Assembly (NCBI RefSeq): GCF_018863195.1
Contig: NZ_JAHKRT010000006.1
Span: forward strand, 124,001-188,000
Origin: Sphingomonas quercus
GTDB lineage: Bacteria; Pseudomonadota; Alphaproteobacteria; Sphingomonadales; Sphingomonadaceae
Length of the DNA: 64,000 bases
Reading direction: 5' to 3'
Within the stretch, counting starts at the first letter, position 1; each line of letters opens with the position of its first letter. A program made the translations under genes and the position numbers. Shown piece after piece: positions 17,538 through 51,145 of this stretch. The notes under the pieces were generated by a model. That model did no database searches and was not told where the DNA came from. It was given only the letters and a program-made list of their open reading frames with translations.

Positions 17538-17572
17538 GACAATTCCTCGGGGATCATAATCTGTTGTTCCCA

Positions 17573-17578
17573 TTATAG
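17573..17578 (-). promoter_or_regulatory. CTATAA box upstream of flbT
   Basis: Minus-strand CCACCTATAATGG, a TATAAT -10 about 35 bp before the flbT start. Confidence 0.6.
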
Positions 17579-17613: not shown

Positions 17614-17626
17614 GGAAAATTTTGCC
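17614..17626. promoter_or_regulatory. FlbD/ftr-like dyad between flbT and flgE
   Basis: GGAAA-ATT-TTGCC, a one-mismatch copy of the GGCAA-N3-TTGCC dyad. It is placed between divergent operons: 36 bp from the flbT CTATAA box and 27 bp upstream of a CCTACAAT box (17652-17659) on the flgE side. Confidence 0.5.
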
Positions 17627-17718
17627 TATGTTTGGCGGCCATTCGCCGCCTCCTACAATGATCGTGGGAACCCGGCTGGCGCCACGCGCCCGTCGAACCA
17701 CTATGCATGGAGACAGAC

Positions 17719-28317: not shown

Positions 28318-28328
28318 CCTATTATAGG
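28318..28328. promoter_or_regulatory. Overlapping divergent -10 boxes of fliL and flgF
   Basis: CCTATTATAGG is a perfect 11 bp palindrome. It gives CTATAAT on the minus strand (fliL) and TATTAT on the plus strand (flgF), so the two promoters may share one -10 site. Confidence 0.55.
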
Positions 28329-28338
28329 ATGGACACTG

Positions 28339-28351
28339 GGCAATATTTGCC
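28339..28351. promoter_or_regulatory. FlbD/ftr-like dyad between fliL and flgF
   Basis: GGCAA-TAT-TTGCC, a perfect dyad. It lies 12 bp upstream of the fliL CTATAA box and inside the likely flgF leader, so one protein could activate one operon and repress the other. Confidence 0.65.
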
Positions 28352-31366: not shown

Positions 31367-32539
31367 TCAGCCGGCGAGGAACGGGCGATAGGGGTTGAAG
31401 GCGAGCAGGCTGTCGATCGCGTCGGCATTGCGCGCGAAGATGCCGAGCTCGCGCACCCGGCCCGTGCCGATCGTCATGCGCAGCCGTCGATAGGCGCCGA
31501 AGCCGGTGTGCCTGTTCATGAAGTCGATCTCGCGGGCAATGTCCGATCCGGACTCCCAGAACAGGAAGTCGGACACATGATTGTCGATCTTCTTGGCGAT
31601 CTTCACCGCCGTGTCGCCTCGGTCGAGGAAGTGATAGAGAACGGTCAGCACGATCGCCATGTCGAACACCTGACTCCCGAGGTCGACGGACTCGGCGGTA
31701 TCCTGCCGGAAATCGCACTGCGTGTTGAACAGCTCGTTGAGGATCGAGGCGGTGGTGAAATGGGAATCCTGCGGCTCGACGCCGACCACTTGCGCGCCCA
31801 GGCGGCTGAAGTGACGCGAGAAATAGCCCGCGTTGCAGCCGATATCGAGCACGCTCGCCGGCCGGATATAGCCGAGCGTGTCGGCGATGCAGCCGAGCCG
31901 GTTAGGGAAGAAATTGTCACGATGGGCGAAGGGGATATGGAATTGCGGATGCTCGATCGGCGAATAGGGCTCCTTATAGCCGATCTGCTCGACATGCCGG
32001 CGTACGCGCGCGCCGATCGACGGCTCGAACAGCGACCCGAATGAGCGGGGCGACATGCGCACATTGGCCCAGCGCTGGCGCCGGCCGATCAGATAGCTGG
32101 CGCGGTGATGGCCGTCGCGCAGGATGAAGCGGCCGGTGGCCGCATCATATTCGCCGTCGAGCAGGAAGGCGTCGTCGTCTACGCCATTCTCGGCATAGCG
32201 GGCGTTGAGATGGTTGAAATAATCATAGCGCTCGAAGATCTGACGGGCGGCATCACGCGGCGGGGCGACGCCCATCGTGCGGTGGGTGGCATTCCACCAA
32301 TTCTCATAATAGCCAACGTCCAGGCGCGAGGGATCGAAGAAACCCTCGAACAGCCGCACATGCGAGCGCAGGCTCAGGATCGACAGGCCGTCGGTGATGC
32401 CGTGCTGCTGATGCCAGAGCGGCGGCCGATCGGGATATTTCCCCGGGCCATGGATGAAATCATTGCTTTCGCAAAACAGCATCTCCACCGGAACCCGGCA
32501 GATATAGGTGTCACCAACGACCTTGAACGAGGTCTTCAT
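31367..32539 (-). CDS. Methyltransferase fused to a DGHHR (ParB/Srx-like) domain
   Basis: A 390-residue protein. The middle (about 100-155) has FLLDGEYDAATGRFILRDGHHRASYL, the DGHHR signature of ParB/sulfiredoxin-like folds. The C-terminal half is a class I SAM methyltransferase (ASVLDIGCNAGYFSRHFSRLGAQVVGVEPQ, then MAIVLTVLYHFLDRGDTAVKIAKK). The substrate is unknown. It is the 3'-most gene on this strand of a block that includes a glycosyltransferase/methyltransferase fusion, kdsA and kdsD, beside the flagellins, so a glycan or flagellin target is plausible by context only. Confidence 0.7.
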   Translation of the reverse strand: MKTSFKVVGDTYICRVPVEMLFCESNDFIHGPGKYPDRPPLWHQQHGITDGLSILSLRSHVRLFEGFFDPSRLDVGYYENWWNATHRTMGVAPPRDAARQIFERYDYFNHLNARYAENGVDDDAFLLDGEYDAATGRFILRDGHHRASYLIGRRQRWANVRMSPRSFGSLFEPSIGARVRRHVEQIGYKEPYSPIEHPQFHIPFAHRDNFFPNRLGCIADTLGYIRPASVLDIGCNAGYFSRHFSRLGAQVVGVEPQDSHFTTASILNELFNTQCDFRQDTAESVDLGSQVFDMAIVLTVLYHFLDRGDTAVKIAKKIDNHVSDFLFWESGSDIAREIDFMNRHTGFGAYRRLRMTIGTGRVRELGIFARNADAIDSLLAFNPYRPFLAG

Positions 32540-32585
32540 TCCTCATCATCCCCTGAATGACTATCGACACCCGGCAGTCGCCGGT

Positions 32586-33977
32586 TTATTTCCGGTCGAA
32601 CGCGAGGAACGTGATGCGGCTGTCCTTGCCGACATTCCAGGGCGCGCGATTATAGTGGGAATATTCGTGCTTCGCGTAGTCGGCGAGGCGGAAGCCAAGC
32701 TCGTTCATCAGATAGATGTAGAGTTCGGGATCGCGATTGAACACCGGCGGATTGCCGTCACGGCGCCACCGCTGGTCCATCAACTCGGCGATGACGACGC
32801 GCTGACGCCCCTTCACCGCCTCAACGAGCAGCGGCAGGATCGCCTCGTCGGCGACGTGCAGCAGAACGGTGTAGAAAAGCAGCGCCGGGGCCTCCGGATA
32901 TTGATAGCCGTGATCATGGATGCGGAAGCTATGGCCCGGCAGATATTCGCGCGCCTGGCGCAGCGAATTCGGATTCACGTCGACGCCGGTATAGCCCTCC
33001 GGTGTGAACAGGGAGGCGATCCGGCCGATGCCGCAGCCGATCTCCAGTACCGGGAAAGTGCCGCCGAGCGCGCGACCGAGCGCGGCGCCGACATCGAACC
33101 CTTCGGGGAATTCATAGCCCTTGCCGGGGATGATGTGGTCGACGCCTTCCTGGATCCAGAACGCCTCCTCCGGCGTCCGCCACAGGCGGTTGTCGCGCCG
33201 GTCGCGCGCGCCCTGCTCGGTAATGCGGGCGGATTCATGCTCGACCTTGGCGCCAGTGGCCCTGGCGGCGCGCGACGCCTGCCAGTGGCGGATCACTGCC
33301 GGCTCGGCCCCGGGCGCACCGTCGATGTGGAGATAGGAGCGCGGCAGCCAGCTCGTCTTCAGCGGCTTGACGCTGCTGACGTCGCACCAGGCGGAGCTGA
33401 GATGGACCTGATCCCAGGTCAGCGGGTCGGCCTTGCAGCGCAGCACCCATTGTTTCAGCAGATCGCGCGCCAGCTCGGTCTTGCCGAAATAGAGCGTGCC
33501 GGAACAAAATTCCCAGCCACGGTCATGCTCGGCATGGTTCCACGTCCATTTGTGAAGCGCGACATCGGCCGCGAGCGCGGAGAACAGCTCCGGCAGTGCC
33601 TCGACGGTGGCATCGGCGTCGATCCACACGATCGGATGATCGGAAGCTTCCCACTGGGCGAGGATGAATTCGGCCTTGTAGGCGCAGACATGTTCCCAGC
33701 GCGCCGTCGCGTCGATCGGATGCAGCACATAGTCGAGGCCGAATTGATCGAGCGTCGCGCGCAGGCGCGCGGCATGCTCGGCATATTCGTTGTTGGCGGT
33801 GTAGAAAGACACGATCTTGAAGGGATGGGCGCCGGCTGCGACGACATCGCGCACCTCGCGCGGCTCGACCTTGCGCGCAAGATCACGACCGACAAAGCCC
33901 TTCACCTCATAGGCGCGGGTATTGCTCTCGCCAAAGACCGGAGCCGGAGCCAGCGCGGCGGCACTCTGAAAATTCAT
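32586..33977 (-). CDS. Glycosyltransferase-like / methyltransferase fusion protein
   Basis: A 463-residue protein with two parts. Residues about 20-220 look like a nucleotide-sugar transferase fold (FKIVSFYTANNEYAEHAARL, then HPIVWIDADATVEALPEL with a DxD motif, and WEFCSGTLYFGKTELARDLL). Residues about 285-460 are a class I methyltransferase (FPVLEIGCGIGRIASLFTPEGYTGVDVNPNSL). It may add and then methylate a sugar. Start 33977 is chosen from the GGGA eight bases upstream; 33986 is possible. A CTATAA box lies about 97 bp upstream, which ties it to the flagellar regulon. Confidence 0.65.
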   Translation of the reverse strand: MNFQSAAALAPAPVFGESNTRAYEVKGFVGRDLARKVEPREVRDVVAAGAHPFKIVSFYTANNEYAEHAARLRATLDQFGLDYVLHPIDATARWEHVCAYKAEFILAQWEASDHPIVWIDADATVEALPELFSALAADVALHKWTWNHAEHDRGWEFCSGTLYFGKTELARDLLKQWVLRCKADPLTWDQVHLSSAWCDVSSVKPLKTSWLPRSYLHIDGAPGAEPAVIRHWQASRAARATGAKVEHESARITEQGARDRRDNRLWRTPEEAFWIQEGVDHIIPGKGYEFPEGFDVGAALGRALGGTFPVLEIGCGIGRIASLFTPEGYTGVDVNPNSLRQAREYLPGHSFRIHDHGYQYPEAPALLFYTVLLHVADEAILPLLVEAVKGRQRVVIAELMDQRWRRDGNPPVFNRDPELYIYLMNELGFRLADYAKHEYSHYNRAPWNVGKDSRITFLAFDRK

Positions 33978-34074
33978 CACGATCATCCCATCGGCTAGGC
34001 CGCCGCTTCTTGAGATCTGGTCCATCAAGCGGTGACACGATCGCAACGGCGACGGGCGCCATTGCTCCTGTTCA

Positions 34075-34080
34075 TTATAG
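34075..34080 (-). promoter_or_regulatory. CTATAA box upstream of the glycosyl/methyltransferase fusion
   Basis: Minus-strand CGCCCTATAATG, about 97 bp before the start. A half-dyad TTTGCC lies at 34120-34125. Confidence 0.55.
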
Positions 34081-34129
34081 GGCGGGATGCCGTCCGAGCG
34101 TGGCGGCGGCCGATGATTGTTTGCCTATT

Positions 34130-34969
34130 TCAGCTCTTGGCGAGCTGATCGAATTTCTGAAGCCTGGCCAGCAAGGCCGGCATGTCGGCGAGGCGGACCA
34201 TGTTCGGCCCGTCGCTCGGCGCGCGCTCCGGCTGCTCATGGGTTTCCATGAAGATAGCCGCGACGCCGATCGCCAGCGCCGCACGCGCCAGCACCGGCAC
34301 GAACTCGCGCTCGCCGCCGGAACTCGTCCCCTGCCCGCCCGGCTGCTGCACCGAATGGGTGGCGTCGAACACCACCGGGAAGCCGGTGCGCGCCATGATC
34401 GGCAGCGAACGCATGTCCGTCACCAGCGTGTTGTAGCCGAAGCTGGCGCCGCGCTCGCACAGCAGCACCTGATCATTGCCGGCGGAGACCAGCTTGGCGG
34501 CGACATTGCGCATGTCCCACGGCGCGAGGAACTGGCCCTTCTTGACGTTGACCGGCTTGCCCGTCTTCGCCGCGGCGACGAGCAGGTCGGTCTGGCGGCA
34601 GAGGAATGCGGGGATCTGCAACAGGTCGACCGCTTCTGCGACCGGCGCGCACTGTCCGGCGTCATGAACGTCGGTGACGACCGGGCAGCCATAAGTCTCG
34701 CGCACTTCGGCGAACACCTCCAGCGCCTTGTCGATGCCGATGCCGCGCGGTGCGTCGATCGAGGTGCGATTGCCCTTGTCGAATGAGGATTTGTAGATCA
34801 GCGGGATGCCGAGCTGCCCACATATCTCGGTAAGCGCGGCCGCCATTTCCAGCGCATGGGCGCGGCTTTCCATCGCGCACGGGCCGGCGATCAGGGTGAA
34901 CGGCCGGTCATTGGCGATGGCGTGCGGTCCGACATGGACGGTGCGCGGGCTGTCGGGAGCGTCGGTCAT
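34130..34969 (-). CDS. kdsA: 3-deoxy-8-phosphooctulonate (Kdo-8-P) synthase
   Basis: A 279-residue enzyme joining phosphoenolpyruvate and arabinose 5-phosphate to Kdo 8-phosphate. Motifs: [71 protein letters not shown] and [19 protein letters not shown]. Cys31 in AGPC marks the metal-dependent class (the E. coli metal-free type has Asn there). It lies 25 bp after kdsD. This pair normally serves LPS or capsule synthesis; here it sits between flagellar genes under a flagellar-type promoter box. Confidence 0.95.
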
Positions 34970-34994
34970 CGAGGAACAGAGCCTTTCTCAAATC

Positions 34995-36008
34995 TCACGG
35001 GCGAAGCAGGTCGTAGCTCTGGATCATACCGCATAGCCGCCCGCCGTCATCCACCACCGGCACCACCGACAATGGCCGGCCGACCTGCTGGAGCAGCATC
35101 AGCACGTCGGCAACCACCGCGCTCTCGCGCACTGTAATCGGCTGGGCGCACATGATGTCGGCAGTGCGCTTCGAATAAATGTCGTGGCGGGATTCGATGA
35201 GGCGGCGGACATCCCCGTCCACCACCAGCCCGAGCAGGCGCGCGGCATGATCAACCACGCACACCGCACCCATGCGCTGGGCGGAGATCACGGTGATCAT
35301 GTCGGCAACGCTGGCGTCCGGCCCGATCGTCGGCAGATCGGCCCCCTTGCGCATGAGATCGCGGATCGGGATCATGTGGCGGCCGAGCAGGCCGGCCGGG
35401 TGATGGCGCAGGAAATCGTCGCGGGTGAAGCCCCGCGCGCGGCTGACGGCGACCGCCAGCGCATCGCCGATCGCCATCTGCAGCGTGGTGCTGCAGGTCG
35501 GCGCCATGCCGATATGATCGGCCTCGCCGCGCACATTCATCAGCACGCAATGCTCGACGACCTGGGCAAGTGGCGATTCCGCCCTGCCGATGATTCCGAT
35601 CAGGCGGCAGCGGCGCGCCTTGAGGATCGGCAGGATGCGCATGATCTCTTCGGTGGTACCGCTGTTTGAGAAGAGCAGCACGACATTCTCGGTCTGCACC
35701 GCGCCGAGATCGCCATGGGCCGCCTCGGCGGCGTTGAGGAAGAAGGCGGAGGTGCCGAGGCTCGAGAAGGTTGCCGCCACCTTGGCCGCGACCAGCCCCG
35801 ACTTGCCGATGCCCAGGCACACGATCGGCCGCTCCTGCGCGGCGACCAGCGCGACGATCGCGGGAATGGCGTCATGCTCGGCGCCGAGGAATTGATCCAG
35901 TGCGTCGCGCTCGGCGGCGAGCACGTCGCGGAACCACAACCGGCTGAGCTCGTCGCCAGTGTCGGAAGCCTCAAGCGGCAGAAACGCATTGGCATTGTAG
36001 TTCAGCAT
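34995..36008 (-). CDS. kdsD: Arabinose-5-phosphate isomerase (KpsF/GutQ family)
   Basis: A 337-residue enzyme. The SIS domain (about 30-175) has IVCLGIGKSGLVAAKVAATFSSLGTSAFFLNAAEAAHGDLG and LLFSNSGTTEEI. A linker GFTRDDFLRHHPAGLLGRHM follows, then two CBS domains (about 200-335). It turns ribulose 5-phosphate into arabinose 5-phosphate for KdsA. ATG 36008 opens the conserved region; an upstream ATG adds 17 unlike residues. First gene of kdsD-kdsA. Confidence 0.93.
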   Translation of the reverse strand: MLNYNANAFLPLEASDTGDELSRLWFRDVLAAERDALDQFLGAEHDAIPAIVALVAAQERPIVCLGIGKSGLVAAKVAATFSSLGTSAFFLNAAEAAHGDLGAVQTENVVLLFSNSGTTEEIMRILPILKARRCRLIGIIGRAESPLAQVVEHCVLMNVRGEADHIGMAPTCSTTLQMAIGDALAVAVSRARGFTRDDFLRHHPAGLLGRHMIPIRDLMRKGADLPTIGPDASVADMITVISAQRMGAVCVVDHAARLLGLVVDGDVRRLIESRHDIYSKRTADIMCAQPITVRESAVVADVLMLLQQVGRPLSVVPVVDDGGRLCGMIQSYDLLRP

Positions 36009-36109
36009 TCGACAGCTCCAACCCCGCAGTGATCCTGCTCGTTTTTTCAGACCGTGCATGACGCGCTCCGCCTGGTGACGGAGCCCTGCCGGCGATCCCT
36101 TTCCTCACC

Positions 36110-36115
36110 TTATAG
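36110..36115 (-). promoter_or_regulatory. CTATAA box upstream of kdsD-kdsA
   Basis: Minus-strand CCCTCTATAAGG, about 100 bp before the kdsD start. Confidence 0.5.
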
Positions 36116-36136
36116 AGGGCTAATCGGGGCCTGCGA

Positions 36137-37924
36137 TCACGCCGCCTGGCGCAGCCGCGTGTTGAGGCGCTGGGTCTCGCGCTGCAAGTCGCGCAGCCAC
36201 GAACCCAGGCCGAAGCGACGCATGTCGATCTGGCGCCAGAACAGCCCCGGATCGCGGGCATAGAGGTCGATATGGGCGAGCGCGTTGGCGCATTGCGAGC
36301 CCATGTCGATCACCTCGGCCAGCTCGACCAGATAGAATGGCAGCGGCCGCTCCGTGTTGCCGAGCTGCTCGGCATGCGCTGCGGAAGCGGCGCGAAGCGA
36401 CACGTCCATGCCGTGGCGGAAATAGGCGGTTGCCGCCTCGATATCGCCATTGGCGAGATGCAGCCGCGCCCCGAAAAAGGCGCCGCCCACCGCCTTGGTC
36501 GCCAGGATCGGCGAGAATTCCTGCCAATTGCCTTCAGCGGCCATGCGGAACCAGCTGATCGCCGCGGCGCGATCGCCGATCATCTCGCACAGCCGACCGG
36601 CGAGGAAGGACAGCGAGATCGTCCAGCGGCGGACATGCGGCGGCGCGTCCGTCCCCTCGACCGTCTGGAGATAATCGATGATGTTGCCGATCAGCGTCGC
36701 CACGCGCTGCCCGGCGCGCAACTCCAGCGCGCGATAGCCCAGCACGGTGAGCGCGGCGCCGCGATCGGCGGAATCCGGGCGCGACGTGGCGATGACCTGG
36801 CCGGCGAGCTGGGCCAGCTTGCCCTCGTCGCCCAGCCGCTCGCCCATCTGCACCATGCTGCGATAGAGCCAGGGATTGTCATAGGCGGCGCCGAAATCGG
36901 CGGCCACCGGATTGCCGGACGGCTCGAAGCCGGGATGCGAATAGAGATCGCGATGGGCGGCGCCCTGCAACGGGTCGACGATCGCCGAGACGATCATCCA
37001 TTCCAGCGACAGCTGATTGTCGAGATCGACCTTGATGAGGGTGCGCGGCCCCTGCGGGTCGGGCGTGGTCGGCACCTGCGCATGGCGCTGCTCGGTGATG
37101 AATCGGCGGGCGACTTCGTCATGGAAGGCCTGCCAGCTGGTCGGGCGGGCATTGTCGCCCGGCGAGCCTTCGCGCAGGGCGAGGATCAGCCGGCCGTCGA
37201 ACTTCAGCACGCGGGCATAATCGTCGAGCCGCGCCGAAAGGCCTTGCGGCATCGCCGGCTCGACGGCGACGATCATGTCGAGCGAATGGTCGGCAATGTC
37301 GCGCAGCGAGCCCTCGACGCCGTCCGCGCCTTCCGCGTCCGCCACGCGGCGGAAGCGGCTGCCGCGGCACGACGCGCCGAGGATGCGCACGCCATCGGCG
37401 GAGTCCGCCCCGTCAACCAGCACCGTGTCGCCGGCGCGCACCCGGGTGGCGGCGAAGGCGTAGCGCGCGATGATCGCGTCGGCCGCGACACCGCCGCGGG
37501 AGAGCGCGCCGCCGCGCCCATGCTCCGGCAGGCGCTGATAATAGGTGACGATGGGCAGCGTCTGCCCGCTCCAGTCCGAATAGTCGTTGGCGAACATGCC
37601 GGCAGGATGACGGCTGAGACCGGCCGCGAACAGGGTCGCTTCGATCGCCGCGCGATGGGCGCCGCGCGTCATGAGCACCAGCGTGTCGAGATGGATGAAG
37701 GGGCGGATCACCTCGGCCAGCGACTGGCTGCCGTCCTGGCGCGGCCATTCGACGAAGCCGACCCTCGGTCCGCTGCCGTCGGCGAGCGGGCCGTCCGGTG
37801 TGCCATAGACGTCGCAGCCCATAAGCGACAATTCATGCGCCAGTGCGACGTGATCGGACAGGTTCAGCGCGATGCGGCACGGGCCCAGGCGCGAGACGAT
37901 TTTCGAGGCGAGGTCGATGTTCAC
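36137..37924 (-). CDS. Large helical-repeat protein with a degenerate methyltransferase-like N-terminus
   Basis: About 595 residues. The N-terminal half resembles a Rossmann methyltransferase core without a clear SAM loop (IALNLSDHVALAHELSLMGCDVYG, ADTVLVDGADSADGVRILGASCRG, LDMIVAVEPAM). The C-terminal half is TPR-like (ALTVLGYRALELRAGQRVATL, AISWFRMAAEGNWQEF, HLANGDIEAATAYFRHGMD). I choose GTG 37924; the ATG at 38005 lies at the expected transcript start. No named family. By position it may be a scaffold or transferase of the flagellin-modification block. Confidence 0.55.
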   Translation of the reverse strand: MNIDLASKIVSRLGPCRIALNLSDHVALAHELSLMGCDVYGTPDGPLADGSGPRVGFVEWPRQDGSQSLAEVIRPFIHLDTLVLMTRGAHRAAIEATLFAAGLSRHPAGMFANDYSDWSGQTLPIVTYYQRLPEHGRGGALSRGGVAADAIIARYAFAATRVRAGDTVLVDGADSADGVRILGASCRGSRFRRVADAEGADGVEGSLRDIADHSLDMIVAVEPAMPQGLSARLDDYARVLKFDGRLILALREGSPGDNARPTSWQAFHDEVARRFITEQRHAQVPTTPDPQGPRTLIKVDLDNQLSLEWMIVSAIVDPLQGAAHRDLYSHPGFEPSGNPVAADFGAAYDNPWLYRSMVQMGERLGDEGKLAQLAGQVIATSRPDSADRGAALTVLGYRALELRAGQRVATLIGNIIDYLQTVEGTDAPPHVRRWTISLSFLAGRLCEMIGDRAAAISWFRMAAEGNWQEFSPILATKAVGGAFFGARLHLANGDIEAATAYFRHGMDVSLRAASAAHAEQLGNTERPLPFYLVELAEVIDMGSQCANALAHIDLYARDPGLFWRQIDMRRFGLGSWLRDLQRETQRLNTRLRQAA

Positions 37925-38014
37925 GAGCAAGATCCTGTCCGGACAATGATAGGCCTGCCCTCCGCAACCGCACCGGCCGCCCGAGGGCATCGTAAATATG
38001 GCCATTACTATCTC

Positions 38015-38020
38015 TTATAG
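38015..38020 (-). promoter_or_regulatory. CTATAA box upstream of the helical-repeat gene
   Basis: Minus-strand CCCTCTATAAGAG, about 90 bp before the GTG start. Confidence 0.5.
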
Positions 38021-38073
38021 AGGGGTTTTCATGGACACCCCGCGCAGCAATAAAAAAGCGCATCGCGTCGGGC

Positions 38074-38086
38074 GGCAAAGCTTTCC
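38074..38086. promoter_or_regulatory. FlbD/ftr-like dyad upstream of the HAD gene
   Basis: GGCAA-AGC-TTTCC, one mismatch from the dyad, three bases upstream of a CTATATT box (38089-38095) on the plus strand and 57 bp before the HAD start. A TTAACC half-site follows at 38094-38099. Confidence 0.5.
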
Positions 38087-38142
38087 CTCTATATTAACCG
38101 CGACGGCCAGATCTCTGCGCCACCCATGCCCCGAGGGACGAG

Positions 38143-40560
38143 ATGACCCATAACGCCATTCGCGCCAATGCCCTTCACACGCTGCTGGACATGGTTCCCC
38201 CGAGCATCACCTGCCTGTCGCTCGACTGTTTCGACACGCTGATCTGGCGCAATCTCAACGCGCCGGTCGACGTTTTCCCCGATCTCGGCCTGCCCGGTGG
38301 CAGCATCGAGCGCCGCCGCATGGCCGAGGGCCAGGCGCGCGCCCTTGCCCCCCACCTGCGCAACCGCTCGGAAGTGACGCTCGAGGAAATCCACGCCGAA
38401 CTCGTCCCGGACAATGTCGAGCATCAGCAGGCGCTGGTTCAGGCCGAGCTGGATGCGGAAGCGCGCCACTGCTTTGCCTTCGCGCCGGTCCGCGACCTGA
38501 TCGTCGGCGCCAAGCAGCGCGGCATGAAGGTGGTGGTCGTTTCCGACACCTATCTGTCCGAGGCGCGGCTGCGCACGCTGATCGCCGATGTCGCCGGTGC
38601 CGACCTGCTCGCCATGATCGACCAGGTGTTCTGCTCGTGCGAATATGGCATCGGCAAGACGCGCGGCCTGTTCGCCCATGTCCTCAAGGAAACCGGGCTG
38701 AAGCCGAGCGAGATCCTGCACATCGGCGACAATCTGACCGCGGACGTCTCGGCGCCGGCCTTCTACAACATCAACGCCGTCCATCTCCAGCAGTTCAGCC
38801 TGGAGACGCTGCAGCGCCTGCGCATGGAAGCGGCGGCCGGCACGATGCTGGATTCGACGACGCGCAACACCCATCCGGCCTACCAGCCGCATCGCGCCCA
38901 GATCGCGCTGCGCGAGAATGACGACCCGGTCTACGCCTTCGGCCATGACGTGCTCGGGCCGGTGATGTCCGCGTTCGCGACGTGGTTGCACGACGAGGCG
39001 GAGGCGCTGGAGAAGGAAACGGGCAAGCCCGTGAAGCTGCTGTTCCTGCTGCGCGACGGCCATCTGCCGGCGCGCGCCTTCACCGCGCTCTATCCGCAAT
39101 GGGCGGATCGCGTGAAGGAGGTTTCGATCAGCCGCTTCACCGCCGTCGCCTCCAGTTTCCGCGATAGCGAAACGATCAACCGCTACATGATGCCGTGGCT
39201 GGTCAAGAATATCCGCCGGCCGATCTCGAAGGCGACCTTCTTCACCCGCCAGCTGCTGTTCAGCGACGAGGAAGGCGCCGCGCTGACCGAAGGCAAGACG
39301 ATGGGCGAATTCGGCGAGGACATTCTGAAGCCGGAGCATCAGCAGCTCATCGTCGATCGCTCCCGCGCTTTCTCCCGCCGGCTCGTCGCCCATCTGCACG
39401 GCGAGGGCATCGACGATGGCGACACGGTGATGATGATCGATCTCGGCTATGCCGGCACCGTGCAGGACGCCGTCGAGGCCGTGCTGCGCGAGGATATGGG
39501 GCTGACCGTCGCCGGCCGTTACCTGCTGCTGCGCGAGCAGCTTCGCCAGTCCAGCGACAAGAAGGGCTTTTTCGACACCCGCAATTATGACTATCGGGCA
39601 ATCACCTCGATCTATGGGCCGATCTCGGTGCTGGAGCAGTTCTGCACCGTCGGCCTCGGCTCGGTGGTCGACTATGCGGCGGATGGCACGCCGATCCGCG
39701 ACGAGCCGGGCGTGAAGGGCGCGCAGAGCGACATCCGCGAACAGGCCCAGCACGCCTGCATCGATTTCGTGCGCGAGACCGGCAAGGGCTTCGTCCGCCC
39801 GCCCCGTTCCGACAATCATGATGCGCGCCGCCGCGGCGCCGCCGGCATCCTCGCGCGCCTGCTGTACATGCCGATGGACAGCGAGATCGCCATGCTCGAA
39901 AATTTCGCGCACGACGTCAATTTCGGCACGGACGCGATGATCGAGATGTTCGACCCCGCCTCCGCCGATCGCAGCCTGCGCCGCCGCGGCATGTTCTACA
40001 CCAAGAACGCGATGCGCATGTATCTGCCGGGCGAACTGCACAAGCACGGCCTGCCGATGAACATGACCTTGTTCGGCATGCGCCGCTTCGCGCTCGACTT
40101 TGCCAAGGACGAGTTCAACGTCGACGCCATGCAGCTGCCGATCCAGATCTTCGGCGGCGGCCAGTCGTCGGCCGAGACGGTCGGCGCGCACCGCACCGCG
40201 GACGGCTTCTACCGGGCGACCATTCCGGTCGGCAGGGGCGAGTTCACGGTCGGCATCTTCCTCGGCCGGCTGTTCGAATATGTCCAGTTCGACGAGATCA
40301 GTTTCCAGCCGGTCGACGAGCTGGTGCTGGAGGCGCAGACACCGGCCCACGCCATCATCGAGGGCATGGATGAGGTGGCCAAGGGGCTGTACCGCATCGA
40401 GGGGGCGGACGGCTTCATGGTCGTCCAGGCCGTGCCGGCCGAACAGCCGATGCTGCTCAACCTCGTCTTCCGCCCGATCGTGACCCGCGCCAAGCCGAAG
40501 CTCGAAAGCATCGAGCCCGCGCACGAGGCCGTCGATGAGGGCCGCAGGGCGGCTGCCTGA
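38143..40560 (+). CDS. HAD-superfamily protein (COG5610-like) upstream of the flagellins
   Basis: An 805-residue protein. Residues 1-230 hold the HAD motifs: LSLDCFDTLIW (nucleophile Asp), VVVVSDTYLSE, a KTR lysine in EYGIGKTRGLF, and LHIGDNLTADV. A second conserved part follows with PVKLLFLLRDGHLPARAF, ISRFTAVAS and MMIDLGYAGTVQDAVEAVL, as in COG5610-type predicted hydrolases linked to polysaccharide loci. The end is beta-rich. The phosphatase residues look intact. It has its own dyad and terminator. A role in making the flagellin glycan is inferred from position. Confidence 0.7.
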   Translation: MTHNAIRANALHTLLDMVPPSITCLSLDCFDTLIWRNLNAPVDVFPDLGLPGGSIERRRMAEGQARALAPHLRNRSEVTLEEIHAELVPDNVEHQQALVQAELDAEARHCFAFAPVRDLIVGAKQRGMKVVVVSDTYLSEARLRTLIADVAGADLLAMIDQVFCSCEYGIGKTRGLFAHVLKETGLKPSEILHIGDNLTADVSAPAFYNINAVHLQQFSLETLQRLRMEAAAGTMLDSTTRNTHPAYQPHRAQIALRENDDPVYAFGHDVLGPVMSAFATWLHDEAEALEKETGKPVKLLFLLRDGHLPARAFTALYPQWADRVKEVSISRFTAVASSFRDSETINRYMMPWLVKNIRRPISKATFFTRQLLFSDEEGAALTEGKTMGEFGEDILKPEHQQLIVDRSRAFSRRLVAHLHGEGIDDGDTVMMIDLGYAGTVQDAVEAVLREDMGLTVAGRYLLLREQLRQSSDKKGFFDTRNYDYRAITSIYGPISVLEQFCTVGLGSVVDYAADGTPIRDEPGVKGAQSDIREQAQHACIDFVRETGKGFVRPPRSDNHDARRRGAAGILARLLYMPMDSEIAMLENFAHDVNFGTDAMIEMFDPASADRSLRRRGMFYTKNAMRMYLPGELHKHGLPMNMTLFGMRRFALDFAKDEFNVDAMQLPIQIFGGGQSSAETVGAHRTADGFYRATIPVGRGEFTVGIFLGRLFEYVQFDEISFQPVDELVLEAQTPAHAIIEGMDEVAKGLYRIEGADGFMVVQAVPAEQPMLLNLVFRPIVTRAKPKLESIEPAHEAVDEGRRAAA

Positions 40561-40675: not shown

Positions 40676-40688
40676 GGCAAATATTTCC
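40676..40688. promoter_or_regulatory. FlbD/ftr-like dyad 1 of the first flagellin
   Basis: GGCAA-ATA-TTTCC. The right arm ends 15 bases before TATACT (40704-40709), the same spacing as at fliF and the second flagellin. Confidence 0.6.
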
Positions 40689-40690
40689 TA

Positions 40691-40703
40691 GGCAAGATTT
40701 GCC
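40691..40703. promoter_or_regulatory. FlbD/ftr-like dyad 2 of the first flagellin
   Basis: GGCAA-GAT-TTGCC, a perfect dyad 15 bp downstream of dyad 1 and abutting the TATACT box. Confidence 0.65.
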
Positions 40704-40742: not shown

Positions 40743-40840
40743 ATTTTTCTCGCACATCACTTTGCCGTGAGTGCATTCCTTCCCACAATGGATTTGTAAG
40801 CTCGTCAAAAAGGCTTTCCGAGGGTCGGCGTTTCCGGCCC

Positions 40841-40883: not shown

Positions 40884-41726
40884 ATGGCACTTTCGCTCAA
40901 CACCAACATCGGCGCGATGGCCGCGCTGCAGACCCTGAACGCCTCGAACCGTTCGATGGAGACGACCCAGAGCCGCATCAACACCGGCCTGAACGTCGCC
41001 AGCACGAAGGACGATTCCGCGAAGTTCACGATCGCCCAGCAGCTGCGCGGCGACGTTGGCGGTCTGGCTTCCGTTACCTCCTCGCTCAACAACGCGAAGA
41101 GCGTCTCGGACGTCGCCGTCTCGGGTACCGAGCAGATCTCGGACATCCTCAACAAGATGAAGGCGCTCGTCGCCCAGACCGAAGGCGCGGACTCCGAGTC
41201 CAAGGAGCGCATCGGCGAGGACTTCAAGGCCTATCAGTCGCAGATCAAGAACATCATCACCTCTTCGGCCTTCAACGGCGTGAACCTGCTCGCTGGCACC
41301 TCTGCCGGCGGTTCCAGCACCACGGCGCTGATCTCGCTGCAGGGTTCGGATGGTGACTCGACGACCTGGGATTTCGAGAAGCTGTCGCTCGACAACCAGG
41401 ACCTGACCACGAAGCTCGCCACCATCACCGGTTCGGGCGAAGCGGTCACCGGTTCGGGCACGATGAGCGACCTCGAGGACGCGTTCGGCAGCGTGCAGGA
41501 CGTGCTCAGCACGCTCGGCGCCAACGCCCGCCGCATCGAGGACCAGCTGGTGTTCACCAGCAAGCTGTCGGACACGATCACGAGCGGCATCGGCAACATG
41601 GTCGACGCTGACCTGGCCAAGGAATCGGCCAACCTCCAGTCGCTGCAGGTCAAGCAGCAGCTGGGCGTGCAGGCTCTCTCCATCGCCAATCAGGCGCCGC
41701 AGACCCTGCTGTCGCTGTTCCGTTAA
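40884..41726 (+). CDS. fliC: Flagellin A
   Basis: A 280-residue flagellin. The N-terminal D0/D1 has LSLNTNIGAMAALQTLNASNRSMETTQSRINTGLNVASTKDDSAKFTIAQQLRGDV. The C-terminal D1/D0 has VKQQLGVQALSIANQAPQTLLSLFR. The middle is short and Ser/Thr-rich (SAGGSSTTALISLQGSDGDSTTWDF), with possible O-glycosylation sites. Most of its length is near-identical to the flagellin at 42251. It follows the putative modification block. The promoter region has two dyads, and the mRNA leader has a hairpin just before AAGGAA. Confidence 0.96.
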   Translation: MALSLNTNIGAMAALQTLNASNRSMETTQSRINTGLNVASTKDDSAKFTIAQQLRGDVGGLASVTSSLNNAKSVSDVAVSGTEQISDILNKMKALVAQTEGADSESKERIGEDFKAYQSQIKNIITSSAFNGVNLLAGTSAGGSSTTALISLQGSDGDSTTWDFEKLSLDNQDLTTKLATITGSGEAVTGSGTMSDLEDAFGSVQDVLSTLGANARRIEDQLVFTSKLSDTITSGIGNMVDADLAKESANLQSLQVKQQLGVQALSIANQAPQTLLSLFR

Positions 41727-42050: not shown

Positions 42051-42063
42051 GGCAATATTTGCC
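42051..42063. promoter_or_regulatory. FlbD/ftr-like dyad 1 of the second flagellin
   Basis: GGCAA-TAT-TTGCC, a perfect dyad, 17 bp upstream of dyad 2. Confidence 0.65.
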
Positions 42064-42067
42064 GCCA

Positions 42068-42080
42068 GGCAATTTTTTCC
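42068..42080. promoter_or_regulatory. FlbD/ftr-like dyad 2 of the second flagellin
   Basis: GGCAA-TTT-TTTCC. The right arm ends 15 bases before TATAGC (42096-42101). Confidence 0.6.
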
Positions 42081-42206
42081 TGTCTAGTTGGACAGTATAG
42101 CCCTGTTTTCAGGCGTTTTTCCTGCGTCCGATTTTGGCGGCGCATTTTTTCTTCCCAGAATAAGGGCACGGGACGCGCAAGCGACCTGCAGTGGCCAGGG
42201 ACAATC

Positions 42207-42244
42207 CGGGTGCGAAGAATTCGGCCCGATATCCTAGAAGGGAA
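42207..42244 (+). promoter_or_regulatory. Leader hairpin and RBS block of the second flagellin mRNA
   Basis: CGGG-CGAA (42207-42216 with a TG bulge) pairs with TTCG-CCCG (42220-42228) around loop GAA. ATCCTAGAAGGGAA follows. The loop and downstream block match flagellin A while the stem bases differ but still pair. Confidence 0.68.
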
Positions 42245-42250
42245 GTGAAT

Positions 42251-43102
42251 ATGCCTTCAGTCAACACCAATGTCGGCGCAATGGCCGCGCTGCAGGTCCT
42301 CAACGCCACCAACCGTTCGCTGGAAACGACCCAGAGCCGCATCAACACCGGCCTGAACGTCGCCAGCACCAAGGACGATTCCGCCAAGTACACCATCGCC
42401 CAGCAGCTGCGCGGCGATGTCGGCGGTCTGGCTTCCGTCACCTCTTCGCTCAACAACGCGAAGAGCGTCTCGGATGTCGCGGTGTCGGGAACCGAGCAGA
42501 TCTCGGACATCCTCAACAAGATGAAGGCGCTCGTCGCCCAGTCGGAAGGCACGGATGCCGAATCCACGGCTCGCATCGGCAAGGACTTCCAGGCCTATCA
42601 GAACCAGATCGAGAACATCATCACCTCCTCCGGCTTCAACGGCATCAATCTTCTTGCCTCGCCGAACTCCACCGGTGGCGGTTCCAGCACCACGGCGCTG
42701 ATCTCGCTGCAGGGTGGTGATGGTGACTCGACGACCTGGGACTTCGAGAAACTGTCGCTCGACAATGTCGATCTGTCCACGAAGCTCGCCTCCGTCCTCG
42801 GCGGAAGCGCAGAGTGGGCGGCGGCCGGCTCGGTGAAGATGGAGCATCTCGAGGATGCGTTTGGCGAAGTGCAGGACGTGCTCAGCACGCTCGGCGCCAA
42901 TGCCCGTCGCATCGACGACCAGCTCGTCTTCACCAGCAAGCTGTCGGACACGATCACCAGCGGCATCGGCAATCTCGTCGATGCGGACCTGGCCAAGGAA
43001 TCGGCGAGCCTCCAGGCGCTGCAGGTCAAGCAGCAGCTGGGCGTGCAGGCCCTCTCCATCGCCAACCAGGCGCCGCAGACCCTGCTGTCGCTGTTCCGTT
43101 AA
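42251..43102 (+). CDS. fliC: Flagellin B
   Basis: A 283-residue flagellin, PSVNTNVGAMAALQVLNATNRSLETTQSRINTGLNVASTKDDSAKYTIAQQLRGD at the start and the same LGVQALSIANQAPQTLLSLFR end as flagellin A. The main differences are in the middle (SPNSTGGGSSTT, then ASVLGGSAEWAAAGSVKMEHLEDAFGEVQ). ATG 42251 is chosen because AAGGGAAG lies just upstream and the family begins there; an upstream ATG would run through the leader hairpin. Both the gene and its 3' region are a tandem duplicate of flagellin A. Confidence 0.96.
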   Translation: MPSVNTNVGAMAALQVLNATNRSLETTQSRINTGLNVASTKDDSAKYTIAQQLRGDVGGLASVTSSLNNAKSVSDVAVSGTEQISDILNKMKALVAQSEGTDAESTARIGKDFQAYQNQIENIITSSGFNGINLLASPNSTGGGSSTTALISLQGGDGDSTTWDFEKLSLDNVDLSTKLASVLGGSAEWAAAGSVKMEHLEDAFGEVQDVLSTLGANARRIDDQLVFTSKLSDTITSGIGNLVDADLAKESASLQALQVKQQLGVQALSIANQAPQTLLSLFR

Positions 43103-47959: not shown

Positions 47960-48382
47960 TCAGGACGCCGGCGAGACGGGCACGCCGTCCTCGATGAAGC
48001 TGCGCAGCTTGTTGCGCATCGTGCGCACCGAGATGCCGAGGATCGTCGCCGCCGAGGTGCGGTTGCCGCGGCAGCGCGCCAGCGTGCCGAGGATCAGCGC
48101 GCGCTCGACATCGGCGACGCTGCGGCCGACGAGCCCCTCGATCACCGCCGGGCCGGCGCCGAGGCGGGACAACACGTCCGACACGTCGATCGGCACGTCC
48201 ACGGCGACGAGGCCGCCCTGGGCCCGTTCGCGCAGCCGATCCAGCATGCCGGCATCGGCCGGGCGGATGACGAGCGCTTCACGGCCGGCGCGTGCCAGCC
48301 CCGCGGCAACCTCGGCAGCCGCAAGCGGCTCGCCGACGAGGAGGATATGGGACGTTTCCTTGGGAGCCTGAACGTGAGCCAT
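47960..48382 (-). CDS. flbD: FlbD-like regulator lacking the AAA+ domain
   Basis: A 140-residue protein. Residues 1-80 are a degenerate receiver-like domain (SHILLVGEPLAAAEVAAGLARAGREALVIRP) with no phosphoacceptor Asp. Residues 85-127 are a Fis-type HTH (GLVGRSVADVERALILGTLARCRGNRTSAATILGISVRTMRNKLRSF) close to that of FlbD/NtrC activators. The AAA+ sigma-54-activating domain (Walker A, GAFTGA) is absent, and the gene is packed between fliN (TAATG overlap) and flhA (23 bp), so it is not cut by the window. It can still bind DNA, probably the GGCAA-N3-TTGCC dyads. Confidence 0.8.
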   Translation of the reverse strand: MAHVQAPKETSHILLVGEPLAAAEVAAGLARAGREALVIRPADAGMLDRLRERAQGGLVAVDVPIDVSDVLSRLGAGPAVIEGLVGRSVADVERALILGTLARCRGNRTSAATILGISVRTMRNKLRSFIEDGVPVSPAS

Positions 48383-48746: not shown

Positions 48747-50330
48747 TCATGCGTTCATCCACTGGCGAATGACCGAGACGGACTCCGCCGGGTTGGCGCT
48801 GATCGCGTCACCGATCTTGCGCAGCGCCGAGAGCCGGATGCGGCCGTCGACCTGGGCCAGCGCGATTTCCTGGTCGAGCAGGTCGGGATCGCCCTGCCCT
48901 TCGAGCATCGGGTTGCCATCGGCATCCACCAGCATCTCGCCTTCGCGGCCCTCCACCGTCAGCTCGCCCTCGCGGGTGCCGGGCTCGGCATCGGTGCCGC
49001 GACGACGCAACATGCGGACCGCGAACAGGCCGGCGGCGACGACGACGATCAGTTCGACGAGGTTGAGCAGGTTGCCGCCGGTCAGGCCGAAAGGCAGGGC
49101 GCTCTTCTCGCCGTCCATGCCGTCGACGGCGGCAAACGGCATGCTTTCCACGACCACGCTGTCACCGCGGTCGGCATCGAAGCCGACGGCATTCTCCACC
49201 AGCCGGGTGAGGCGCTGCACCTGGGGCGCAGGCAGGCCGGCGGTGCCGCCATCGACCATCACCGCGACGGTGAGGCGATTGATCTTGCCGGGGCCGCTGA
49301 CGCTCACCGTATGGGTGCGGCTATTGTCGTAGGTCGTGTCTTCGGACGATTCGTTCTTGGCCGAGCGGCGGGAATTGCCGCCATTGCCGTTGACGTCGGC
49401 TTCCTTGTCGGGAAGCTGGGCGGCGACGGTCGCGCCCTGGGCACCGGCATCGGATTCATTGTTCTGGTCGTTCGATTCCACCGTCACCTGGTGCTGGATC
49501 ACCTGCTTGTCGGGATCGAACATCTCGGCTTCCTGCCGGGTCTGGTCGCGGTTCAGCACCACGGCGACCTCGGCGCGCACCTTGCCCTGGCCGACGATCG
49601 GCTCGATCAGGGATTCGATCTCCTGACGCAGCCGGCCCTCGACGGCAGCCTGGCGTTCCTCGATCTCGGAGGCGGCGGCGCCGGCCTCGTCACCGGCCCG
49701 GGCGAGCAACGCTCCGGACTGATCGACGACCGATACGCTTTCCGGCGACAGTTCGGGCACCGAGGACGACACGAGATAGCGGATCGACTGGACCGCCTCG
49801 CTCGGCAGGCGGCCCTGCGTCTTCAGCGTGACGGCGGCGGTCGCCTTGCGCGCCTCGGCGGCGAACATCGCGCGCTCCGGCATGACGATGTGGACGCGCG
49901 CCTTGCTGACACGATCGAGGCTCTCGATCGACTTGGCGAGCTCGCCCTCGACGGCGCGCGTCTCGTTCATCTTGGCGCGCGAGGAGGATACGCCGAACGG
50001 CTCCTCGGCATCGAGCACCTCGTAGCCGATCTTGCCGCCCAGCTTCTCGGAGGCCATCGCCATCCGAAGCTCCGGCAGCTTGTCCACCGGCGCGGTGATC
50101 GCGGTGCCATCCGCCGACAGCTGGAACGGCACGTTCTGCGCCTTCAGCTTCTCGGAGATCGCGGCCGCGGCCGACGGATCAAGATCCGTGTAGAGAAAGC
50201 CCATCTCGGACGACGAGCCACTGCGCATGGCCAGCACGCCAATTCCGAGGAGCAGCGCCAGGGCGACGCCACCCATGATCATCAGCCGGCGTGGGCCAAG
50301 CTGGGTGATCAGATTCCGCAATCCGTTCAA
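48747..50330 (-). CDS. fliF: MS-ring protein FliF
   Basis: A 527-residue protein with two membrane helices (LMIMGGVALALLLGIGVLAM near 18 and LLNLVELIVVVAAGLFAVRML near 430). Periplasmic YscJ/FliF domains have FLYTDLDPSAAAAISEKLKAQNVPFQL, ALEGELAKSIESL-type and VSKARVHIVMPERAMFA. The C-terminus (VSVIRQWMN) binds FliG. It has its own promoter: CTATAA box 49 bp upstream and a perfect dyad overlapping the end of fliH. Confidence 0.96.
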   Translation of the reverse strand: MNGLRNLITQLGPRRLMIMGGVALALLLGIGVLAMRSGSSSEMGFLYTDLDPSAAAAISEKLKAQNVPFQLSADGTAITAPVDKLPELRMAMASEKLGGKIGYEVLDAEEPFGVSSSRAKMNETRAVEGELAKSIESLDRVSKARVHIVMPERAMFAAEARKATAAVTLKTQGRLPSEAVQSIRYLVSSSVPELSPESVSVVDQSGALLARAGDEAGAAASEIEERQAAVEGRLRQEIESLIEPIVGQGKVRAEVAVVLNRDQTRQEAEMFDPDKQVIQHQVTVESNDQNNESDAGAQGATVAAQLPDKEADVNGNGGNSRRSAKNESSEDTTYDNSRTHTVSVSGPGKINRLTVAVMVDGGTAGLPAPQVQRLTRLVENAVGFDADRGDSVVVESMPFAAVDGMDGEKSALPFGLTGGNLLNLVELIVVVAAGLFAVRMLRRRGTDAEPGTREGELTVEGREGEMLVDADGNPMLEGQGDPDLLDQEIALAQVDGRIRLSALRKIGDAISANPAESVSVIRQWMNA

Positions 50331-50378
50331 GACAGCCTCGCAAATCTGGTAAGCAAAGGCCGTGCCCCTGCACAGGCA

Positions 50379-50384
50379 TTATAG
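50379..50384 (-). promoter_or_regulatory. CTATAA box of fliF-fliN-flbD-flhA
   Basis: Minus-strand CTCCTCCTATAATGC. TTGCC of the dyad lies 15 bases upstream, near -35. Confidence 0.65.
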
Positions 50385-50395
50385 GAGGAGAATCG

Positions 50396-51145
50396 CTAGG
50401 CAATTCTTGCCGGATCGATTTCTTTCTCGATGGCCGGCTCCTCGGCGGAAACGCGCTCGGCCACCGGCATGCCGGCGAGCAGCGGCGCCATCTCGGCCAT
50501 CACCGCCGCACGCCGCGCGGCGCTGTCGATCGCCAGGCTGCCTTCGTCCCAGGCGATCACGGCATCGCCATGGCTCATGTCGGGATCGGGCAGCACGGTG
50601 ACGTAGAGCTTGCGGCGTTCCTTGCCCTGGCGCAGCGCGAACAGCCGCTCCACCTCGCCCACGATGCCGGGGCTGACGCGGATGACGAGCCGCGTGCCGC
50701 GCGCCACCTGCTGGAGCACGCGGCCGAGCGCTTCGTCGATGGCGCGGCCGGGATCCTGCGCGAGCGCATGGCCGGCCAGCGCCTCGCCGATCAGCAGCGC
50801 AACGTTGGCGGCATCGCGGGTCATGCCGTCGGCGGCCGCCACGAGCCGCTGGTCGACATCGTCGAAGGAGGCGTGGACCGCATCGAGCGCGGCGAGCACC
50901 GCCGCGTCGCGTTCGCCGCGGGCGTGGCGGAGCCCCGCCTCGAAACCGTCGGCGCGGGCGCGGGCCAGCTCGTCGCCATGATCGCGCGCCATGCGCGCCA
51001 TGGCCTCGCGCAGCTCGCTCACGACCTCGTCTTCCTCGGCCTCCACCCCCATCTCGGCCTCGTTCCTGGGCTCGGTGGTGTGGAGGTTGCTGAACACGCG
51101 ATCGAAGCGGAACGGCCGCACATCGGATGAAGCATGGTGGATCAT
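50396..51145 (-). CDS. fliH: Flagellar export stator FliH
   Basis: A 249-residue protein. The N-terminal region is charged, then comes a coiled-coil middle (REAMARMARDHGDELARARADGFEAGLRHARGERDAAVLAAL). The C-terminal FliH domain has GRVLQQVARGTRLVIRVSPGIVGEVERLF and SHGDAVIAWDEGSLAIDSAARR. FliH holds FliI and contacts the C-ring. It follows fliG by 25 bp. Its last codons contain the fliF dyad. Confidence 0.9.
   Translation of the reverse strand: MIHHASSDVRPFRFDRVFSNLHTTEPRNEAEMGVEAEEDEVVSELREAMARMARDHGDELARARADGFEAGLRHARGERDAAVLAALDAVHASFDDVDQRLVAAADGMTRDAANVALLIGEALAGHALAQDPGRAIDEALGRVLQQVARGTRLVIRVSPGIVGEVERLFALRQGKERRKLYVTVLPDPDMSHGDAVIAWDEGSLAIDSAARRAAVMAEMAPLLAGMPVAERVSAEEPAIEKEIDPARIA
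50399..50411. promoter_or_regulatory. FlbD/ftr-like dyad at the fliF promoter
   Basis: GGCAA-TTC-TTGCC, a perfect dyad formed by the last codons and upstream edge of the fliH stop. On the minus strand the arm nearer fliF ends 15 bases before TATAAT. Confidence 0.65.

Follow-up and report, generated by a model that had tools for sequence, protein, structure and literature searches.

The closest described counterpart of the locus studied here is the flagellar circuit of Caulobacter, made up of FlbD, its ftr sites and FliX. We take these FlbD-bound ftr sites to have GGCA...TGCC half-sites, which the dyads of the present locus resemble, and the Caulobacter flbD gene presumably occupies the same kind of place as the short flbD gene described below. 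The window (the whole stretch of 64,000 nucleotides that was analysed) is like that circuit in the HTH family of its FlbD and, judging by related genomes with an intact FlbD, in a GGCAA/TTGCC dyad upstream of fliF and the flagellins. It differs in having no AAA+ domain, no GAFTGA motif, no -24/-12 promoters, no FliX and no CtrA-like box at fliF. According to excerpts of the respective papers, Caulobacter FlbD carries GAFTGA (PMC10274813) and represses fliF (PMC3930126, PMC3096577).

A second point of comparison is offered by enhancer-binding proteins that lack GAFTGA and act on sigma-70. TyrR is also one of them, and proteins of the NtrC/VspR/TyrR type are not known to have lost their AAA+ domain. 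The NtrC proteins of Rhodobacter capsulatus and Caulobacter, together with VspR of Vibrio, are given as examples in the excerpted part of PMC10274813. The window FlbD appears similar in that contact with sigma-54 is lost and the promoter sequences would fit sigma-70; it is different in that its AAA+ domain became degenerate and was then removed, that it is a flagellar regulator, and that the promoters of the cluster changed alongside. The absence of GAFTGA alone is no proof that sigma-54 function is lost in full, because Caulobacter NtrC point mutants without this motif raise sigma-54-dependent flagellar transcripts (PMC12421884, in excerpt).

Two further comparisons concern small proteins with a Fis-type HTH. 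Response regulators of the RegA/PrrA/ActR group consist of a receiver and a Fis-type HTH with no AAA+ domain, and three of the loci compared here (L100, L104 and L151) share this plan, with a complete receiver fused straight to the HTH. Descent and gene place set them apart from that group, and in the window protein the receiver is incomplete. Fis is alike in being a small Fis-type HTH protein, whereas the short FlbD derives from FlbD, is encoded in a flagellar operon and is the presumed reader of GGCAA dyads.

Enhancer-binding proteins that have moved to sigma-70 are known, and in the open-licence literature, as far as its accessible portions go, we found no report of FlbD losing its sigma-54 machinery, nor of such a flagellar FlbD case. 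A 2022 study of Sphingomonas sp. WG treated FlbD as a sigma-54 activator (PMC8921679, in excerpt). Our results question this assumption for Sphingomonas, as GAFTGA is present in 0/80 loci among the best 80 of 311 matches, which are loci of short-form likeness; strain WG itself lies outside the comparison. Here we propose as likely that a shrunken FlbD works on the same dyads at sigma-70 promoters, with activation by contact as its main mode and some repression possible.

The flagellar cluster of the window holds fliI, flbT, flgE-K-L, fliM-fliL, flgF-G-A-H, two flagellins, flgD, fliK, flhA, fliN, fliF and fliG; fliH is assigned by its place and a weak match. The features on which the argument rests are as follows.

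47960-48382, minus strand: short FlbD, 140 aa, partial receiver and Fis-type HTH, no AAA+ domain, between fliN and flhA
50399-50411, minus strand: putative FlbD box of fliF, exact GGCAA-N3-TTGCC, overlapping the end of fliH
50378-50383, minus strand: putative -10 TATAAT of fliF, 15 nt from the dyad
50352-50367, minus strand: sigma-54-like GGGCACGGCCTTTGCT in the fliF leader, scoring 11/12, judged a chance match
48747-50330, minus strand: fliF, presumed target
28339-28351, minus strand: putative FlbD box between fliL and flgF, exact dyad
28321-28326, minus strand: putative -10 TATAAT of fliL, overlapping TATTAT at 28320-28325 (plus strand), which faces flgF
17614-17626, plus strand: putative FlbD box between flbT and flgE, GGAAA-N3-TTGCC
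17654-17659, plus strand: putative -10 TACAAT of flgE, 27 nt from the dyad, with TTTGGC at 17631-17636
17572-17577, minus strand: putative -10 TATAAT of flbT
40676-40703, plus strand: putative tandem FlbD boxes upstream of flagellin 1, dyads at 40676 and 40691
40784-40789, plus strand: likely -10 CACAAT of flagellin 1, with TTTGCC at 40761-40766
40884-41726, plus strand: flagellin 1, presumed target
42051-42080, plus strand: putative tandem FlbD boxes upstream of flagellin 2, dyads at 42051 and 42068
42156-42161, plus strand: likely -10 CAGAAT of flagellin 2, with TTTGGC at 42133-42138
42191-43102, plus strand: flagellin 2, presumed target; start codon as called, flagellin domain from residue 24
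38074-38086, plus strand: the weakest dyad, between a gene at 36137-38005 (minus strand) and a HAD-domain gene at 38143 (plus strand)

All eight dyads that the original prediction had named (17614, 28339, 38074, 40676, 40691, 42051, 42068 and 50399) match GGMAA-N3-TTKCC without a mismatch and, as it had said, lie in intergenic DNA or at a gene end near flagellar genes or the modification block. The apparent intragenic position of the dyad at 17614 comes solely from an overlong call of the flbT ORF, whose FlbT domain begins at residue 60. With one mismatch allowed, the window holds 15 matches against 4.4 expected, a number reached by 0/100 shuffles. The whole genome has 22 sites per strand (8 for the reversed pattern), and the window, 1.8% of the genome, accounts for 8/22 of them (binomial P 2.4e-9). 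Since the motif was derived from the window itself, the independent test is provided by the relatives. Upstream of fliF, GGCAA-N3-TTGCC was exact in 19 of 79 named-locus regions and present with at most one mismatch in 55, as opposed to 0/80 stretches of flhA coding DNA used as control. The spacing variant GGCAA-N4-TTGCC also matches 37/79 fliF regions at one mismatch, because the distal site is frequently GGCAAAAAATTCCC. Six control palindromes at five spacings gave at most 11 matches (CGGAA-N5-TTCCG), the others matching 0-2 times in upstream regions and 0-6 times in coding DNA. Relatives have three of the sites at the corresponding position, namely those at fliL/flgF (28339), flgE/flbT (17614) and fliF (50399). 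The dyad at 38074 had no support in the relatives examined; in G002 and G009 the HAD-domain gene has no such dyad upstream. The window dyads are best read as putative ftr-like FlbD boxes.

Non-coding copies of the GGCAA dyad are mostly found within the flagellar cluster. Among the 14 sites beyond the window, nine fall within likely ORFs and five do not, one of the five being at a contig end. Flanking proteins were tested for three of these five non-coding sites and none was motility-like (a TonB receptor; an ABC ATPase and a zinc-ribbon gene; an ORF without Pfam match), and the outside dyads were rejected as a wider regulon on this basis.

Next to the flagellins, the region 31367-40560 encodes two methyltransferases, a DAHP-synthase-family protein (PF00793), a SIS-CBS protein, a 622-aa protein with no family over the cut-off and an 805-aa HAD-domain protein. 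It might be a flagellin modification block.

The short FlbD is most likely the protein that reads the dyads. HTH_8 is the only Pfam family over the cut-off in its 140 residues (E 1.2e-12); there is no PF00158 match, and Walker A, Walker B and GAFTGA are gone together with the AAA+ domain. It keeps the FlbD recognition helix and, of the receiver, only the first part, and the gene order fliN-flbD-flhA matches that of intact relatives. The HTH, with an invariant core, is the best-kept part of the short forms, and the recognition helix is nearly invariant from intact rows (SIRTLRNKL) to derived ones (SVRTMRNKL). The structure model (mean pLDDT 73, pTM 0.46) is good only in the HTH. A Foldseek search with it gave no match at E < 0.001; its leading entries were Fis and DNA-binding domains of the NtrC type, the PrrA effector domain (1umq) came at rank 38 (E 0.94), and the model thus contributes little. 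A search of PDB sequences with the short-form alignment placed Fis first (E 1.5e-5).

How this protein may have arisen is indicated by the relatives. Across 60 genomes searched, long frames (455-563 aa) with a strong match turned up in 20/24 genomes of other families, plus G015 and G031; in G000 (the window genome), G001, G002, G009 and G030 the frames are short, with 178-272 aa from stop to stop. The named loci are the best 80 among 311 matches found with a query of the short form, hence those that resemble it most; they comprise 58 long (414-453 aa) and 22 short (111-191 aa) members, nearly all from sphingomonads; all adjoin flhA. We call a FlbD row intact when GAFTGA is present, and 17/17 such rows also keep the Walker A Lys and the Walker B Asp-Glu. 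In contrast, the 65 long rows without GAFTGA have all lost the Walker B Asp (to Arg in 63, to another residue in 2), and the Thr of GAFTGA is Pro in 49 and Ala in 9, with the Walker A Lys kept in 60. In the HTH, these long derived rows differ from the intact ones by His to Ser (64/65), Ala to Ser, Ile to Val and Leu to Met.

In a tree of FlhA (114 rows, built by a quick method, some genomes occurring twice), a single clade of 96 rows, with support 100, unites the 65 degenerate rows with the 31 short ones, and the short rows make up one inner clade (95). The tree reads as a single loss of sigma-54 function followed by a single excision. The rows and genomes compared are related, so that the counts are not of independent events, and at least six genomes are apparently represented by two entries (G009 and L088, for example), identical FlhA rows being among the grounds. 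L092, with 479 residues of FlhA in its locus, was left out of the tree and hence out of the fliF counts. A 71-aa FlbD fragment in G016 (C1:807784-807969; genome 86% complete) was left out of the alignment and retained in the tree, where it stands apart from the short clade; either a second truncation, independent of the first, or an error of assembly could account for it.

FliX shows a parallel distribution. PF10768 was matched in 16/17 genomes with intact FlbD, in 5/7 with degenerate and in 0/10 with short FlbD, and the window genome likewise gave no PF10768 match.

We compared promoters after removing regions with an identical last 120 nt, with shuffles of two-base blocks as the background, a sigma-54 site being counted at 11/12 positions or better and a CtrA-like box as TTAA-N7-TTAA with one mismatch allowed. 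The 38 intact flagellin regions came from 30 loci, a number set as the upper limit, and so represent part of the flagellins found in those genomes. Sigma-54 sites are present in 22/38 of these and in 0/58 regions of the derived clade; dyads are present in 21/38 and 6/58, respectively. CtrA-like boxes were found in 34/58 derived flagellin regions (shuffles 1.7) and in 14/38 of the AT-richer intact set (shuffles 8.8). Apart from the window, 4/56 derived flagellin regions have any such dyad at one mismatch, which makes the tandem pairs of the window rare. Many derived flagellin regions have a common TTTGG...CANAAT element, and the two flagellins of the window carry tandem FlbD boxes instead of a CtrA-like box.

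At fliF the dyad is retained, in 12/12 intact and 64/88 derived regions, and its surroundings have changed. The CtrA-like box, found in 11/12 intact regions (shuffles 3.6), is found in 0/88 derived ones; conversely, TATAAT is present in 0/12 intact versus 59/88 derived regions (shuffles 0.5). The nearest dyad (up to three mismatches) ends 11-16 nt ahead of TATAA[TGC] in 53/88 derived regions and 30-33 nt ahead of it in 19; 24/88 have no dyad at one mismatch and 16/88 no TATAA[TGC] within 250 nt. Searching at spacers of 16-18, we found no more than 2/6 matches to a -35 hexamer in 59/59 derived fliF TATAAT promoters (shuffles reach at least 3 in about 18/59) and in 14/14 fliL promoters (shuffles 5.9/14), while 11/11 flgE promoters have a -35 match of 3 or 4. 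Taking promoter-facing dyads together, a count that leaves out the 17614 dyad of the window owing to the overlong flbT call, sigma-54 sites lie within 200 nt of 7 of the 22 dyads in intact, 0 of the 21 in degenerate and 1 of the 29 in short-FlbD genomes; TATAA-like boxes lie within 45 nt of 2, 17 and 23 of them, respectively.

In 11 of the 12 intact fliF regions (G036, G038, G039, G042, G045, G046, G048, G052, G056, G057 and G058), the CtrA-like box begins exactly 5 nt after the dyad. This fixed spacing suggests direct contact or competition between FlbD and CtrA.

Two statements of the original prediction need to be qualified. First, it held that the dyad arm ends 15 bases before a TATANN box in three cases. 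This is literally right for all three, and it is not a general rule: the distance is 12 nt at fliL in 13/16 derived genomes (11 in one, none found in two), 11-16 nt at most fliF promoters, and at flgE, with up to two mismatches in the dyad, 27 nt in 6, 28 in 2 and 29 in 3 of 15 genomes (not found in 4), that is, 27-29 nt in 11/15. At the flagellins, we rejected the 15-base TATANN rule; the element common to many relatives is the later TTTGSC-N17-CANAAT, and the nearer TATANN boxes are probably not the -10. Second, it reported no GG-N10-GC element beside the dyads. Scanning at 11/12 positions or better, we found none except GGGCACGGCCTTTGCT at 50352-50367 on the minus strand, and the remaining dyads have no sigma-54 element. 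We rejected this match as a promoter; it lies downstream of TATAAT, is the only such site in 88 derived fliF regions (shuffles 0.15) and is judged to be due to chance.

Its central proposal, an ftr circuit rebuilt on sigma-70-type promoters, is borne out at the level of sequence, where the dyad tracks FlbD while sigma-54 sites go from 22/38 to 0/58, and we regard this part of the model as very probable. The truncated FlbD, the loss of FliX and the loss of the CtrA-like box at fliF were not part of it.

We propose the following course of events. The ancestral FlbD would have been a regular activator of the sigma-54 type, with a further position next to a CtrA box at fliF. In the sphingomonad lineage, GAFTGA and Walker B would have been lost first and the entire AAA+ domain later, FliX being lost as well. 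Similar to Fis or RegA, the remnant would go on binding the dyad and would act on promoters presumably read through their new -10 boxes by the housekeeping sigma factor. If transcription starts 7 nt after the -10, FlbD would take the -35 position at fliF and fliL (centre about -30 to -35), where TATAAT is accompanied by no -35 hexamer; at flgE it would sit just upstream of the -35-like TTTGGC (centre about -46), and at the window flagellins far upstream (about -94 and -99).

As for the mode of action, we lean towards activation as the main one, conceivably by contact with RNA polymerase, because the dyad replaces the -35 hexamer at fliF and fliL and the CtrA-like box of fliF is gone. Repression can be argued because Caulobacter FlbD represses fliF, because the fliF spacing varies by at least five bases, and because the dyad between fliL and flgF lies downstream of the putative flgF -10. 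Repression is possible at fliF and for flgF, and activation and repression may each operate at different promoters.

A bolder version, which we regard as a genuine possibility short of an expectation, is that the hierarchy was overturned: CtrA would have left fliF, an early promoter, for the flagellins, and FlbD, stripped of its AAA+ domain, would now serve as a small, Fis-like activator of sigma-70 promoters, its dyad (centre about -31) taking the place of the -35 in the early ones. If true, this would be a new route to a Fis-type protein and a switch of sigma factor with living intermediates. The case bears on how a regulon can change its sigma factor and avoid a dead state on the way, since several stages survive side by side (intact FlbD, ruined AAA+ domain, receiver plus HTH, and part receiver plus HTH), with promoter changes alongside, and the ancestral double use of FlbD, as a distant sigma-54 activator and at a close-range site by CtrA at fliF, is a possible bridge.

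The most serious alternative, which we nonetheless consider unlikely, is that the short FlbD is only a repressor, keeping the ftr4 negative feedback on early genes, with the promoters being of the sigma-70 type and either driven by CtrA or constitutive. Repressors often sit over the -35 or downstream of the -10, and some dyads here do just that. The variable fliF spacing (11 to 16 and 30-33 nt) suits steric repression better than the strict contact of an activator, and CtrA-like boxes are present in over half of the derived flagellin regions. The precedent is Caulobacter FlbD, which represses fliF through ftr4 (PMC3930126, in excerpt). However, fliF and fliL have no -35 hexamer and fliF has no CtrA-like box, which would call for another activator; the spacing at fliL is nearly fixed; and at flgE and the flagellins the dyads precede the -35.

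The dyads might instead belong to an unrelated regulator, the short FlbD being a dying remnant. Its receiver part is indeed degrading, and its binding to the dyads is a prediction; against this improbable reading, the HTH is the part best kept, and the dyad stands upstream of fliF in every one of the 12 regions with intact FlbD. Transcription of the sites by another alternative sigma factor, such as FliA, is very improbable. FliA is over the cut-off in 10/26 related genomes searched, but the fliF, fliL and flbT -10 boxes are TATAAT, and FliA was rejected for the window genome, where the best score, 110.5 bits for a frame of 675 aa, stays below the cut-off of 189.6. Finally, a classic FlbD-sigma-54 circuit whose -24/-12 elements are poor, and in which a different enhancer-binding protein may take part, is scarcely credible: rpoN is present, the fliF leader has its one 11/12 site, and loss of GAFTGA in Caulobacter NtrC mutants is compatible with a rise in sigma-54 flagellar transcripts (PMC12421884, in excerpt), but flagellin sigma-54 sites fall to zero in the derived clade and 0/11 strict sigma-54 sites of the genome are on the window's contig.

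Some smaller observations concern the promoters and sigma-54. At 28318-28328, fliL and flgF have in common one near-palindromic -10 (CCTATTATAGG), read as TATAAT and TATTAT on opposite strands, and a similar TCCTATAAGATAG is found for fliG and the gene at 52308; both elements are possible two-way promoters. The rpoN gene is present in 59/60 genomes, that of the window included. The window genome has 11 strict -24/-12 sites, versus 1 for the reversed pattern. Among six tested ORFs beside such sites, five (L205, L210, L213, L214 and L215) carry PEP-CTERM motifs, pointing to a probable separate role for sigma-54.
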